A stretch of 64,000 nt of DNA, from positions 1-64,000 of the forward strand of contig JAPKZX010000071.1 of NCBI GenBank assembly GCA_026393575.1. The letters are read 5' to 3'. A program made the position numbers and the translations under genes. The DNA is from Actinomycetota bacterium. GTDB lineage: Bacteria; Actinomycetota; Acidimicrobiia; Acidimicrobiales; Ilumatobacteraceae. The notes below the pieces were generated by a model that saw only the letters and a list, made by a program, of their open reading frames with translations, did not search any database and was not told the DNA's origin. This document shows, piece by piece, positions 20,245 to 50,216 of the stretch (position 1 is its first letter; the number at the start of each line of letters is the position of its first letter).

Positions 20245-21897
20245 ATGGGTCGCTTTGTGTGGAGATTCATTGGTGTTGCGTCTCTCATACTGTTGACCTC
20301 CTGCTCAAACACGAAGACACCTGCAACTCAGCAAACAACTGATTTCAGTTCTCTCGTGCAGCGAGTGGCAAGTAACTGCACCGATGCCCCTGTTCCGCGA
20401 TTGGGCCAAGGAAATTTCTGCATTGATAGTGGTTTTACATTTTCGAAAGATGATTTCTCTTTTGCTAACTGGGGAAGATCGCAAAAAGCTGACGAAAACA
20501 TCACCATCCAAACTCTCATTGATCTCTTTGGCCATAACTCTGTATGTCTAAGTGGAAACGAGAAAACATGTACGGCTCGCCCCATCACAACCCAAAAACT
20601 CATTGAGTGGAATAGCGCACTTGCAGGGGGTCGGTGTGAAGGCATCGCTACATTGAGTGCACGGCTGCACATGGGAATTGATGACCCATCACAGTTCAAT
20701 CAGTCCGTCACTGTGAATTCAATTCGCAAGAACAACAGACAACTAAACCAAGCACTTGTGTATTGGTGGGCGACACAACTACTACCGGAAGTTGCGAATC
20801 GGGCGGAGGAATCACGCTTGCATTCACCGTTGGAACTTCTTGATGACCTCATGAATGGCTTCATCAATAATGATGGCTACACCGTCGGCATGTATTTCAA
20901 CAATGCTGGTCACTCAGTGATGCCATTTGCAGTTACAGAGCGCGCCAAAACTTTTGTCATCCATGTATACGACAACAATTATCCGGGCGAGCGACGAGAA
21001 ATAGAGATAGACAAATCATTAAATACGTGGTCGTACAACAACGCACTGCAGCGAGGTGATGGCACGTTTGTCGATTGGCGCGGCGGCACTGGCAGTTTGG
21101 AATTGACCCCCATTGCCTCGCGCGAAGGACCGTTTCAATGTCCCTTCTGTCTTGACATCGAGGACGTAAAGAAAACAACCCTCACTGTGTCATCACAGGA
21201 TCCAAAGAATCCGGTGTACGTTCGCTTGAACAGTCGTCGCGGTGACATCACAACAACTTCAGATTCGACTACAAACACCATTGATGGGGCGACAATTGAA
21301 ACATCAAAGAATGGCATCAACGGGCTACTGACAATCACACTTCCAGCAGATATTGGCGACTTTGATGTGAATTTCCAGAGCAACAACAACGTCTCGATGA
21401 CCGGTGATGCAGTCGCCACCCTTGTCCGTCCCAATATGGCAAGTATTCAGATTGCGGGAAACATCGCACTTCAATCCACAAAGAACTCTGAATCGTCCGT
21501 CATTTCTGCCAGAAAAGAGTCAACTCAAATTCAGGCACCAAGAGATCGAATTCTGCGGGTGTCACTCGCGGCACGAAATCAAATCACACACAGCACGTTG
21601 CGGGGTGGCACGTCGCTCATTGCATACCGACTCACAGACAATTCAATTGAGGTCTCGCTAAAGGGAGCCAACGGCAAGAACAGTTCTCCATCACGTTTTT
21701 CTATGCAGCCTGGTTCATTCGTATCTAGCAGCACACTCAGTATGAACAACGAAGGTTCAGTTGTCGTGACCGAATCACGTGTTGATGCGATGCCCGTACT
21801 GCCTCAGAGAAAACAGAACTTCACGCCGCAAACAAGAACTTCGACAACTACTGCTGTGGAATCGCCACCAAGCATTGTGATCTACGAGCCGGATTAA
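20245..21897 (+). CDS. Secreted lipoprotein of unrecognised family with Cys131/His223/Asp243 pattern and CPFC; paralog of 46075-48021
   Basis: Lipobox LLTSC; GRCEGIATLSAR, AGHSVMPFAV, IHVYDNNYPGERREIEID, GPFQCPFCLDIE; collinear with the second copy. Confidence 0.8.
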   Translation: MGRFVWRFIGVASLILLTSCSNTKTPATQQTTDFSSLVQRVASNCTDAPVPRLGQGNFCIDSGFTFSKDDFSFANWGRSQKADENITIQTLIDLFGHNSVCLSGNEKTCTARPITTQKLIEWNSALAGGRCEGIATLSARLHMGIDDPSQFNQSVTVNSIRKNNRQLNQALVYWWATQLLPEVANRAEESRLHSPLELLDDLMNGFINNDGYTVGMYFNNAGHSVMPFAVTERAKTFVIHVYDNNYPGERREIEIDKSLNTWSYNNALQRGDGTFVDWRGGTGSLELTPIASREGPFQCPFCLDIEDVKKTTLTVSSQDPKNPVYVRLNSRRGDITTTSDSTTNTIDGATIETSKNGINGLLTITLPADIGDFDVNFQSNNNVSMTGDAVATLVRPNMASIQIAGNIALQSTKNSESSVISARKESTQIQAPRDRILRVSLAARNQITHSTLRGGTSLIAYRLTDNSIEVSLKGANGKNSSPSRFSMQPGSFVSSSTLSMNNEGSVVVTESRVDAMPVLPQRKQNFTPQTRTSTTTAVESPPSIVIYEPD

Positions 21898-45263: not shown

Positions 45264-46001
45264 TTACTTGAACGCGCGAACTGGTCGAACAAAGAAGGAC
45301 GATGTTCGGAAGTTTGTTCCCTGAGTGCCGTCCGACATGAGTTCTGCCCATGCACGTGTGTCACTTGATGAGGTGGAACTCCAATACACACCGTTAGATA
45401 ACCCAGCAAGTGAGTTGTCCGCAAGGTTATTAAACAACAACTTCAACTCGTCTTTTGATGGCAAGAACCAATCAGATTTCCCAGCACCCGCATAAGCACT
45501 TGCTTTAGCTGCAGCGCCATTAGCGCATGTACTTGCCGCGCTGGAGTTCTCAGCGCCTGCTCCTATTGCATTCTTTGAAGCAGAAATCTTTGTTGTCATA
45601 TTGGAACACCAGGCAACCGATGGATCGCCATCCTTGCCATTCCAATCGGCAGGAGCTGCTTCCAAGTAATCAAAATCTGGAAATGCATTTTCAGCATCGA
45701 TGAAAAACACCACGCCGCCACCGGGACCAGTGTCTCCCACGGCGTATTCACCAGTTGTAGGGGGAAGAGTTGAACCAGACGATGCAACTGTTGTGCTGGT
45801 TTCGGTTTCAGATGGAAGTGTTGTATCCGAAGGTTCCACCGGCACTGTGGAGTCCGTACCAACGCCATCAGGAAGCGTGGTGAAAGCCGTGTTGCGCTGC
45901 CTATCTCCAGACCCACCGCAACTGGCCACTATTCCTGCCACCAAAACGGTGGCCACTAGGGCTCTGCCAGCCTTCATCATGATTTTGCGTTGTGCGTGCA
46001 C
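45264..46001 (-). CDS. Secreted lipoprotein with DUF1566-like domain
   Basis: Lipobox VASC; Thr/Ser/Pro linker; VGDTGPGGGVVFF...SDWFLPSKDELKLLFNNL...GVYWSSTSSSDTRAWAELMSDGTQ. Confidence 0.75.
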   Translation of the reverse strand: MHAQRKIMMKAGRALVATVLVAGIVASCGGSGDRQRNTAFTTLPDGVGTDSTVPVEPSDTTLPSETETSTTVASSGSTLPPTTGEYAVGDTGPGGGVVFFIDAENAFPDFDYLEAAPADWNGKDGDPSVAWCSNMTTKISASKNAIGAGAENSSAASTCANGAAAKASAYAGAGKSDWFLPSKDELKLLFNNLADNSLAGLSNGVYWSSTSSSDTRAWAELMSDGTQGTNFRTSSFFVRPVRAFK

Positions 46002-46074: not shown

Positions 46075-48021
46075 GTGAACAGTCACCTCAAACCCACACT
46101 CCTCATCGGCCTCGTCGTTGCCATACTCAGCGCATGCAGTGGTGGCGGTGCCTCCACATCTGTTTCTGTCCCCCCTCTTGATGCAACGCCAGTTGCCAGT
46201 GGACTCAACCCCAGCCCCGACGGCTTTTCTTTCGCCAACTTCGCATCTACTGCGTCAACTGAAGAGTTCAACGCGGACGACATGGTGGCCATGTTTGGCA
46301 ACGGGGCGGAAATCTGCACATCTACCTCTTCTCCATGCACTCTTACTGCCGAAGCAGCAGCGTGGGCGCGCATGGTGAACCAAGCTCGTTCATCTGGGCA
46401 TTGCGAAGGCCTCGCCGTGATGTCAGCATCTCGTTTCCAAGAAAAGAGCACTCCAGCAACTTTCAGTCTTCAGAACTCTGGCGATACAACACACGCAATC
46501 ATTCGTGCATTTGCAACTCAATTCCTGAATGAGACAACGAATGCCACAAAAGCATGGGCGAAGCAGTCACCGTCGGACATTGTTGCGGCACTCTCTGCAT
46601 CACTAAAGACTGGCAAGCCTGAATTCAGTTTGGGTGTGTATACAGATGGAGGCGGACACGCAATCCTTCCGTACGCAGTGGAATGGCCGTCTGAAAAAGT
46701 TGCCAAGGTAAAGGTGTACGACTCGAACTGGCCAGGCGGCGATCGATACGTCACAGTCGACCTTGAATCACAGGAGTGGACATTTTCATTCTCCGGAAAA
46801 GATCCCGCTAATGATCCAAATATCTGGAAAGGCGGGAAAGGTGACATCGACATCACGCCACTTTCTTCACGCGTAACTGGAACTTGTCCATTCTGCGGAG
46901 AAAAGAGTGGAGTGCAAAAAACACTTCTCCTTATTCGGTCTGCTTCTTCTGACTGGGAAGTAGAGACTCCTGATGGCACCGTCTCTGCTACCAACAGCAG
47001 CGCCGGTGAAACAACAGCACAACCTTTACGCTCAGCTTCAACAACGCCAGGCGCGCCAGTTGATTACTTGGTCTATGGAACAACTGGAAAGACAAAAATC
47101 ACTTCAAAGTCTGTTGTTGCTGTTGCTGGATTCACCGGCTCTGTTGGATTTCAATACACCACTTCAGGCAAGAACGACACAACCGTAGATATTTCAGCAT
47201 CAGGTATTTCAACAGACGACCCAACAGTCACAGCAACACTTGCTGATGGAAACATCGTTGCAACTGCTTCTGGAGAGAACACTTCTCTTACTTCGACTGG
47301 TGAACAGATCGCCGTAGTTACAGAAACTGAAAGCGGACTAAAAGTTGAGGCCACTGCTACCGCAGACACTGGTGCAATTGCAGTTGATGCTTCACCAGAT
47401 AAATCAGGAGTTGGTTACACCATCACGACGCAGTCTGCGCCAAACGAAATCACTGTGAAGTCAGTGGATGACGCAGGAAACGAAACTGAAGTCACTAAGA
47501 AAGGTCAACTGGATAGCACCAAAACATCCAATGAACTTCCACAAGGTCTTGAAGCACCCGCAGTAAAGCCTGGACTCCCATCAGTCGCGGTACGTATCGC
47601 AGCAGCAAAAGTTTCAGCACGTAGCAACAATGCAGTTTCTACGCGGGGTAACGCAGATATTTCATTCGATACGTCCGGTTGGACCATCGCAAAGACAGCA
47701 AGTGGCTCAAAAGGCTTTCAAGCAAATCTCGTAGTGAACGATGGCAGCGGATCTTCAATCCCTGCTTGCACAGATATCTCATGTGTGAAGGGAATGTCGA
47801 CAAGTATCCTCACCTCAGGTACCGATGCAAAGACTCAGAAGTCAACCACGACATCGATGACGTTCACAATGGCAAACGTAAAAACTGCGTTCTCCGTGAA
47901 ATGTGGTGATGCACCATGGCAAGTGGCGACACAGTCTGGTTCCACTTACGCGGCGTATTGCGATGCGGCAGACATCACGTCTGATCTCACCATCTATATA
48001 AGTAACTCAGTCAAGAACTGA
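46075..48021 (+). CDS. Secreted lipoprotein of unrecognised family with Cys110/His195/Asp216 pattern, CPFC and a long beta-rich C-terminus; paralog of 20245-21897
   Basis: In-frame GTG at 46075 gives VNSHLKPTLLIGLVVAILSAC (lipobox LSAC); GHCEGLAVMSAS, GGHAILPYAVEW, VKVYDSNWPGGDRYVTVD, GTCPFCGEKSG. Confidence 0.8.
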   Translation: MNSHLKPTLLIGLVVAILSACSGGGASTSVSVPPLDATPVASGLNPSPDGFSFANFASTASTEEFNADDMVAMFGNGAEICTSTSSPCTLTAEAAAWARMVNQARSSGHCEGLAVMSASRFQEKSTPATFSLQNSGDTTHAIIRAFATQFLNETTNATKAWAKQSPSDIVAALSASLKTGKPEFSLGVYTDGGGHAILPYAVEWPSEKVAKVKVYDSNWPGGDRYVTVDLESQEWTFSFSGKDPANDPNIWKGGKGDIDITPLSSRVTGTCPFCGEKSGVQKTLLLIRSASSDWEVETPDGTVSATNSSAGETTAQPLRSASTTPGAPVDYLVYGTTGKTKITSKSVVAVAGFTGSVGFQYTTSGKNDTTVDISASGISTDDPTVTATLADGNIVATASGENTSLTSTGEQIAVVTETESGLKVEATATADTGAIAVDASPDKSGVGYTITTQSAPNEITVKSVDDAGNETEVTKKGQLDSTKTSNELPQGLEAPAVKPGLPSVAVRIAAAKVSARSNNAVSTRGNADISFDTSGWTIAKTASGSKGFQANLVVNDGSGSSIPACTDISCVKGMSTSILTSGTDAKTQKSTTTSMTFTMANVKTAFSVKCGDAPWQVATQSGSTYAAYCDAADITSDLTIYISNSVKN

Positions 48022-48806: not shown

Positions 48807-50216
48807 TTGCATAGCTTTGTACAGCGAATCTATTCCGACAACTTGAACACGAAATCATTGGACTACCGTAAGGTCGTGGGGCAATTCACATCAGACCTTG
48901 AGTCTTTACAATCGCATCAGATTCCGCAATGGTACGACGGTGCAAAGTTCGGCATATTTGTCCATTGGTTTGTATCTACCATTCCGGCATTTGCCCCCGT
49001 ATCTGATGACCCGTTCACCCTGGCTGCCGAGAAGGGTGAACGCGAAGCATTCACAGAAAGCCCTTACTCGGAGTGGTACTGGAACTCACTACAAACTCCT
49101 GGCTCTCCTGCAGCATTGCACCACGCAGAAAAATACGGCGACCAACCATACGAAGATTTTGTTCCACAGTTTTTTGAAGCATCACAGGGCTGGCAGCCTG
49201 AACGCTGGGGTGCTCTATTTGCTGCTTCAGGTGCGAAATATTGCGTGATGGGAACCAAGCACCACGATGGTGTTCTGTTGTGGCCAAGTAAAACACCGAA
49301 CCCACACAAAGGTTCACAGTGGACTTCGACTCGCGACATTGTGGGTGAATGCGCTGAAGCAGTTCGATCACACGGTTTGCGGTTAGGGCTGTATTACTCC
49401 GGCGGAATTGATTGGACATTCCAAGGCCTCGGCATTGATGGCTGGGCTTCGTTATACAAGGCGATTCCACAAGATGACGTGTACCACGCATATGTTGAGG
49501 CGCATTACCGAGAACTCATCAGCCGATATGCCCCTGACGTTTTGTGGAACGACATTGGGTATCCAGGTTTTGGTGCAGGCGCAGCAGACCTCTTTGCACA
49601 TTTTTATAACACAAACCCGGAAGGCGTTGTAAACGATCGTTTTGATTTTCTTGGCGTAATGCAAGGCACTGCACATGCTGATTTTGTGACACCTGAGTAC
49701 ACCACTACTCCGCCTCTCGAAGGAAAGAAATTTGAAGTGTGTCGCGGTATCGGCACCAGCTTTGGTTACAACGAACAAGAAGATGACTCGTCATACGCAT
49801 CGTCGTCTGAACTAATTCATATGCTCATCAATATCGTTGCGGCAGGCGGAAACTTCTTGCTCAATGTTGGCCCCATGGCATCGGGCGAAATTCCCTGGAT
49901 ACAACAAGAACGCTTACTTGCAATTGGCCAATGGCTACAGGTCAATGGTGCTGCGATTTATGCCTCTCAACCGCATGAGGTCACACAGCTTTCAACTGCA
50001 GAAGGTGACACTGTCCGACTCACACGCGGTGCCGACGGATTCACATACGCAATGGTCCTTGGTCGTCCGGATTCAAAAGTTGTCAACATTGCTGGGCTAC
50101 CCACAGGCGACACATATTTGCTGGGGTATGACCACCAACTCTCACGCATTGGTGACGACGTAATTCTTCCCTACCGGCCCGACTCGTCTCCCGCGTTTAC
50201 TTTACGGATTGCATAA
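48807..50216 (+). CDS. Alpha-L-fucosidase, GH29 family (start could be GTG 48876)
   Basis: QWYDGAKFGIFVHWFVSTIPAFAP; AKYCVMGTKHHDGVLLWPSKTPNP; APDVLWNDIGYPGFG; NFLLNVGPMASGEIP. Confidence 0.92.
   Translation: MHSFVQRIYSDNLNTKSLDYRKVVGQFTSDLESLQSHQIPQWYDGAKFGIFVHWFVSTIPAFAPVSDDPFTLAAEKGEREAFTESPYSEWYWNSLQTPGSPAALHHAEKYGDQPYEDFVPQFFEASQGWQPERWGALFAASGAKYCVMGTKHHDGVLLWPSKTPNPHKGSQWTSTRDIVGECAEAVRSHGLRLGLYYSGGIDWTFQGLGIDGWASLYKAIPQDDVYHAYVEAHYRELISRYAPDVLWNDIGYPGFGAGAADLFAHFYNTNPEGVVNDRFDFLGVMQGTAHADFVTPEYTTTPPLEGKKFEVCRGIGTSFGYNEQEDDSSYASSSELIHMLINIVAAGGNFLLNVGPMASGEIPWIQQERLLAIGQWLQVNGAAIYASQPHEVTQLSTAEGDTVRLTRGADGFTYAMVLGRPDSKVVNIAGLPTGDTYLLGYDHQLSRIGDDVILPYRPDSSPAFTLRIA

Follow-up and report, generated by a model that had tools for sequence, protein, structure and literature searches.

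The 64,000-nt window, that is, the whole stretch of DNA that was analyzed, encodes two predicted lipoproteins that share an N-terminal domain (hereinafter, the head) followed by a divergent tail; all the features of these two genes are on the forward strand. The first of them, P0002 (46075..48021), starts with GTG and encodes a 648-aa protein. Its signal peptide (46075..46137) ends in the lipobox LSAC with Cys21, and the conserved head spans approximately residues 40 to 283 (46192..46923; boundaries from BLASTP and profile comparisons). The head contains, in this order, the pair Cys81 and Cys88 (46315..46338), Cys110 in the GHCEG motif (46402..46404), which is the presumed nucleophile, Gln149 in ATQF (46519..46521), His195 in GGH (46657..46659), Asp216 in YD-x-N-x-P (46720..46722) and a CPFC motif (46885..46896). 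The fast-evolving, Ser/Thr-rich tail (46924..48018) consists of a beta-rich module common to clade A, the branch of the family that includes P0002, and a variable part. The other gene, P0001 (20245..21897), encodes a 550-aa lipoprotein of clade B with the lipobox LTSC and Cys20; its head occupies 20422..21180, and Cys131 (20635..20637), His223 (20911..20913) and Asp243 (20971..20973) are the counterparts of Cys110, His195 and Asp216, respectively. P0002 is arranged head-to-head, over 73 nt, with a gene for an Lcl_C-domain lipoprotein on the reverse strand (45264..46001); a promoter scan of this divergent gap found nothing. An alpha-L-fucosidase gene (48807-50216) lies close downstream of P0002.

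Aligned by BLASTP over 321 aa, P0001 and P0002 are 28% identical (E 6e-31), a similarity far beyond chance that confirms, at the sequence level, the real collinear N-terminal family proposed for the two genes in a preliminary description. The spacings quoted there are correct for P0001 and P0002, respectively (92 and 85 for Cys-His, 20 and 21 for His-Asp, 56 and 55 for Asp-CPFC). An extra Cys pair does precede the catalytic-like Cys in both proteins, as Cx6C in P0002 (C81-x6-C88) but as Cx7C in P0001 (C101-x7-C109), not the Cx8C originally given. The homology is limited to the first ~285 aa of P0002 and the first ~312 aa of P0001; compared separately, the two tails gave no match (best E 0.69), and their Ser/Thr content of 26% (P0001) and 29% (P0002), versus 15% and 20% in the heads, bears out the earlier account of a divergent, Ser/Thr-rich C-terminal half. 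A third copy, on another contig of the same assembly (G000:C114), is 48% identical to P0002 over ~500 residues.

Distribution, history and genomic neighborhood

The paralog count suggested in the preliminary description gave 1 to 7 matches in each of the 64 head-bearing genomes among the 201 sampled from the same bacterial family, with as many as seven copies in a genome of ~2 Mb. Within the genus, 20 of 22 listed genomes carry the head; in the wider samples, which include some relatives already counted, it was found in 15 of 296 genomes at the class level and 20 of 398 at the phylum level. A phage origin was rejected, as phage records and viral contigs yielded no relative, and the only plasmid relatives are two Rhodococcus proteins annotated as hypothetical (tblastn). 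The soil isolate Rhodococcus qingshengii F2-2 has a homologous gene (WP_241065042.1).

In the tree of 81 heads, clade A (51 rows, including P0002, the third copy and the giant proteins described below) is separated from clade B (30 rows, including P0001) with support of 100/94. Judging from this topology, P0001 and P0002 are ancient paralogs; a recent tandem-type duplication is ruled out by the placement of the window copies in two deep clades. The earlier designation of P0002 as a second, diverged copy is right in that the two genes are paralogs within one genome, but these are old paralogs of two clades rather than a copy and its derivative. The gene order SDR-TauE-P0001-luciferase is kept across the genus, in at least 7 other genomes, in which the neighbors of P0001 are 65-92% identical to those in the window, the P0001 head, 52-58%, and the tail, 32-35%; therefore, P0001 is an old gene that has been inherited vertically and evolves more rapidly than its neighbors. 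The location of P0002 is common only to the near-identical genome L004 and, partly, to L005.

The Lcl_C domain encoded next to P0002 is named after the Legionella collagen-like adhesin, a binder of glycosaminoglycans (PMC11162425), and is also fused to giant relatives of the head family. Up to 22 Lcl_C matches per genome occur in these genomes, and many of them are within frames of great length, up to 4865 aa. Because the domain is so common, its presence beside P0002 proves little by itself; most copies are located away from heads, and Lcl_C was rejected as a specific partner, the link consisting of the fusions in the giants and a few neighbors.

Conserved residues of the head

In the alignment of the 81 head sequences from the loci at hand, Cys110, His195, Asp216, Asn218, Pro220, Gly108, Gly112, Gly194 and Cys88 (P0002 numbering) are present in all rows, and Cys81, Asn55, Glu111 and Gln149 in 80 of the 81. 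After removal of rows with more than 80% identity, 58 rows were left, in which Cys110, His195 and Asp216 are among the nine zero-entropy columns of 301. Variation of Cys, His and Asp alongside conservation of other positions in a broader alignment, the outcome that the preliminary description had named as refuting its claim, did not occur. These three residues indeed define the family, as had been claimed, but Gln149 and D-x-N-x-P also belong to the core, whereas the CPFC motif is dispensable: both of its Cys are kept in 59 of the 81 heads and are missing together in the other 22, with Cys110, His195 and Asp216 retained. Because the two Cys are lost together, CPFC resembles a non-essential pair that forms a disulphide or binds a metal. 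The presence of CxxC at matched spacing in both window copies could suggest that CPFC is the active centre and the protein a thiol-disulfide oxidoreductase; this reading is largely refuted by the family alignment, which led us to reject CPFC as an active site, and, with no thioredoxin-family match in the Pfam search of the window proteins and 46 members, it is hardly tenable.

Elsewhere in the Actinomycetota, the head profile also picks up more remote proteins, of the types GHCYG...GGHAITP...YDNNYPG and GLCFGM...AHAVVPYR...YDPNYP. In a 21-row alignment at 18-52% identity to P0002, the invariant residues are G75, G108, C110, G112, Q149, H195, D216, N218 and P220 (columns G47, G80, C82, G84, Q121, H167, D188, N190 and P192 of alignment A4). 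As far as this alignment indicates, the core that survives down to 18% identity is G-C-G, Gln149, His195 and D-x-N-x-P; the flanking Cys pairs, including Cys81 and Cys88, which are absent in the distant relatives, and most hydrophobic positions are not kept. The profile of the 21-row alignment matches 36 of the 398 phylum genomes, a number that includes the rows that built it and match by construction, and many of the distant matches span only the region from GxC to YDxNxP. A further type, GMCGGM...NHQVLAY...YDNNYP, found in Paraburkholderia, Microvirga, Bradyrhizobium and the archaeon Haloferax, is tied to the head family by one weak profile match (E 2e-4; 3e-6 with the wider profile) and by shared motifs. 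Assignment of the head to a known family via its distant relatives failed, as their representatives equally showed no known-family match in the domain region. The GLCFGM-type proteins (L100-L107) are ~200-300 aa long, come mostly from one other actinobacterial family and lack an evident signal peptide; the member tested had no Pfam match.

This pattern of retention bears on the view that the head is not catalytic but binds a ligand or has a structural part, its conserved residues keeping the fold or a metal or ligand site. A structural role is conceivable for the conserved Gly, Trp, Asn and Pro and for the Cys pairs. Furthermore, at four loci of related genomes (L042:2419-4697, L043:1977-4249, L038:693-2965 and L046:16504-18776), a stand-alone 355-aa clade B head gene shares one base with the end of an SBP_bac_8 gene that encodes a Tat-type solute-binding lipoprotein, PotD-like by our reading. 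However, the persistence of Cys110, Gln149, His195 and Asp216 to an identity level at which the Cys pairs and most hydrophobic residues are gone is typical of an active site and renders the non-catalytic view unlikely.

Predicted lipid anchor and variable tails

By a simple sequence rule, a lipobox is found ahead of the head in 66 of the 81 proteins, and several of the others are near misses or truncated; the predicted lipobox supports the surface localization raised in the preliminary description. Going by the predicted lipidation, the head is the N-terminal, mostly lipid-anchored module of surface proteins. Among the 58 genes with a complete 3' end, the tail length ranges from 7 to 4160 aa: 8 tails are shorter than 40 aa, 41 are of 40-500 aa, one is of 500-1000 aa and 8 are of 1000 aa or more. 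The 8 stand-alone heads imply that the head works without a tail. Two of the giants contain RCC1 repeats and Big_2, PA14/GLEYA and Lcl_C domains, and one of these also laminin-G (LamG); distant members carry LGFP repeats, or SLH together with BspA-type LRR. The giants encoded at L036:1152-14465, L037:985-14376 and L038:6223-16590, in genomes of ~2 Mb, are 3456-4464 aa long, with RCC1, Big_2, PA14/GLEYA and Lcl_C.

Within clade A, the near-identical genome L004 (95% for the head, 92% for the tail) left aside, the heads are 52-68% identical to P0002 and the tails 23-39%. The clade A tails begin with a beta-type module containing motifs such as DWSxxT and DPxVxLTLA and continue as variable Thr-rich sequence. 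The gap between head and tail identity, along with the varied tail domains, indicates that a constant head is joined to tails that change freely. Between two head genes, L046:6195-16277 encodes a 3361-aa secreted protein without a head, in which PKD-type domains are the only ones recognized.

Possible activity and comparison with known systems

The Pfam-A search detected no convincing match, including to papain-clan families, for either window protein or any of the 46 members, and no match was obtained in NCBIfam, PHROGs, PADLOC or the PDB sequences; the head family is described in none of the libraries searched, despite its presence in 64 of 201 genomes. Peptidase_C39_2 produced just two matches in relatives, too few to make a profile. 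Homology to transglutaminases was rejected after the hhalign comparison with the transglutaminase core PF01841, for which the template consisted of only 5 sequences, turned out not to be significant (best P 0.18-0.35, probability under 1%). Two AlphaFold runs with a three-row input (the window sequences and one locus) yielded low-confidence models (mean pLDDT 39.6 and 44.7), for which Foldseek found no match at E <= 0.001. In both models, a helix begins right after the Cys, a strand opens with the His and the strand that follows it ends with the Asp, with more strands after; in the second run, the His and Asp strands reach pLDDT of ~55-77 and the Cys helix only ~30.

The papain-like core is defined by a Cys that starts the core helix and by a sheet of four to five antiparallel strands, of which strand 2 bears the His and strand 3 a polar residue (PMC10318531). 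The invariance of Cys, His and Asp in the head fits catalysis, and the motif order together with the weak AlphaFold models would fit a papain-like cysteine enzyme; membership of the head in this superfamily is plausible but unproven. Our main reading, with a probability of roughly one half, is that the head represents a new secreted family of papain-like cysteine hydrolases or transferases with an envelope or surface substrate, serving at the envelope as the constant base of variable surface proteins; the fold, the catalysis and, above all, the substrate are what we infer here. Under this mechanism, Cys110 at the helix start would attack a carbonyl, His195 on the following strand would act as the base, Asp216 would orient His195, and Gln149 and Asn218 would help shape the active site. 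The lipid anchor, being attached at the head end, would keep the catalytic part close to the membrane and the wall, with the tail pointing outwards. The bond that the head cleaves or transfers would probably be in a polypeptide of the envelope or the surface; judging from the architecture alone, the most economical substrate would be its own tail or neighboring surface proteins, which would be processed or anchored.

The predicted membrane-proximal position would also suit a peptidoglycan amidase or endopeptidase that remodels the cell wall, a task performed by the papain-like NlpC/P60 and CHAP enzymes (PMC10318531), and some distant relatives carry wall-binding LGFP or SLH repeats. Nevertheless, a wall hydrolase seems quite improbable: the 46 members show no match to Pfam NlpC/P60, CHAP or amidase families, and a gene that varies from 1 to 7 copies, is missing from many genomes and may carry a giant tail is unusual for wall housekeeping.

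The most interesting rival, although decidedly improbable, is a covalent adhesion domain in which an internal thioester between Cys110 and Gln149, formed with the help of His and Asp, would react with the amines of a target surface. Thioester domains are not known to need His and Asp, but in the head these residues are as invariant as Cys110 and Gln149, which speak for this alternative by their near-invariance and Cys-then-Gln order. Moreover, the giants do carry adhesin-type domains, but a lipid anchor on the head side would place the domain at the base rather than at the tip, the distant relatives without an evident signal peptide retain the same residues, and the Pfam thioester-domain families are absent from the matches of the 46 members up to E 10.

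A bolder version of the papain-like reading, which we consider rather unlikely, would make the head the membrane-anchored catalytic base of giant, fast-evolving adhesive fibres in small-genome actinobacteria, with a Cys-Gln-His-Asp centre that processes or cross-links the fibre or covalently attaches it to cell or target surfaces. If active, the head would enlarge the papain-like enzymes by one family and would show small-genome actinobacteria pairing a constant enzyme with freely chosen surface tails; even an inactive head is useful as a marker with which to detect giant surface proteins in metagenomes.

Compared with the papain-like superfamily (Pfam clan CL0125, SCOP d.3; PMC10318531), the head family has the same Cys-His-Asp order, invariant among its members, a secreted or surface setting and, in the weak models, the Cys before a helix and the His and Asp on successive strands; it differs in having no Pfam match and in its own motifs, GxC[EYF]G, GGH[AS] and YDxNxP. 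The conserved Gln of the head follows the Cys, between it and the His, whereas in papain it precedes the Cys. The transglutaminase core PF01841 shares with the head the Cys-His-Asp order and a GxCxx motif at the Cys, but the head lacks the HxW motif, and the best P in the profile comparison is 0.18. The Gram-positive thioester-domain adhesins, an established kind of adhesin (PMC4450167), similarly combine an N-terminal domain and conserved Cys and Gln with long surface proteins; the head adds the invariant His and Asp, and an N-terminal lipid anchor replaces the C-terminal wall anchor. Finally, giant bacterial surface proteins with variable repeat regions, such as the Giant proteins of Apilactobacillus kunkeei (PMC12863079), resemble the head family in being very long extracellular proteins encoded in small genomes; unlike those proteins, the members of the head family start with a conserved, enzyme-like, lipidated head that is found on short and giant tails alike.
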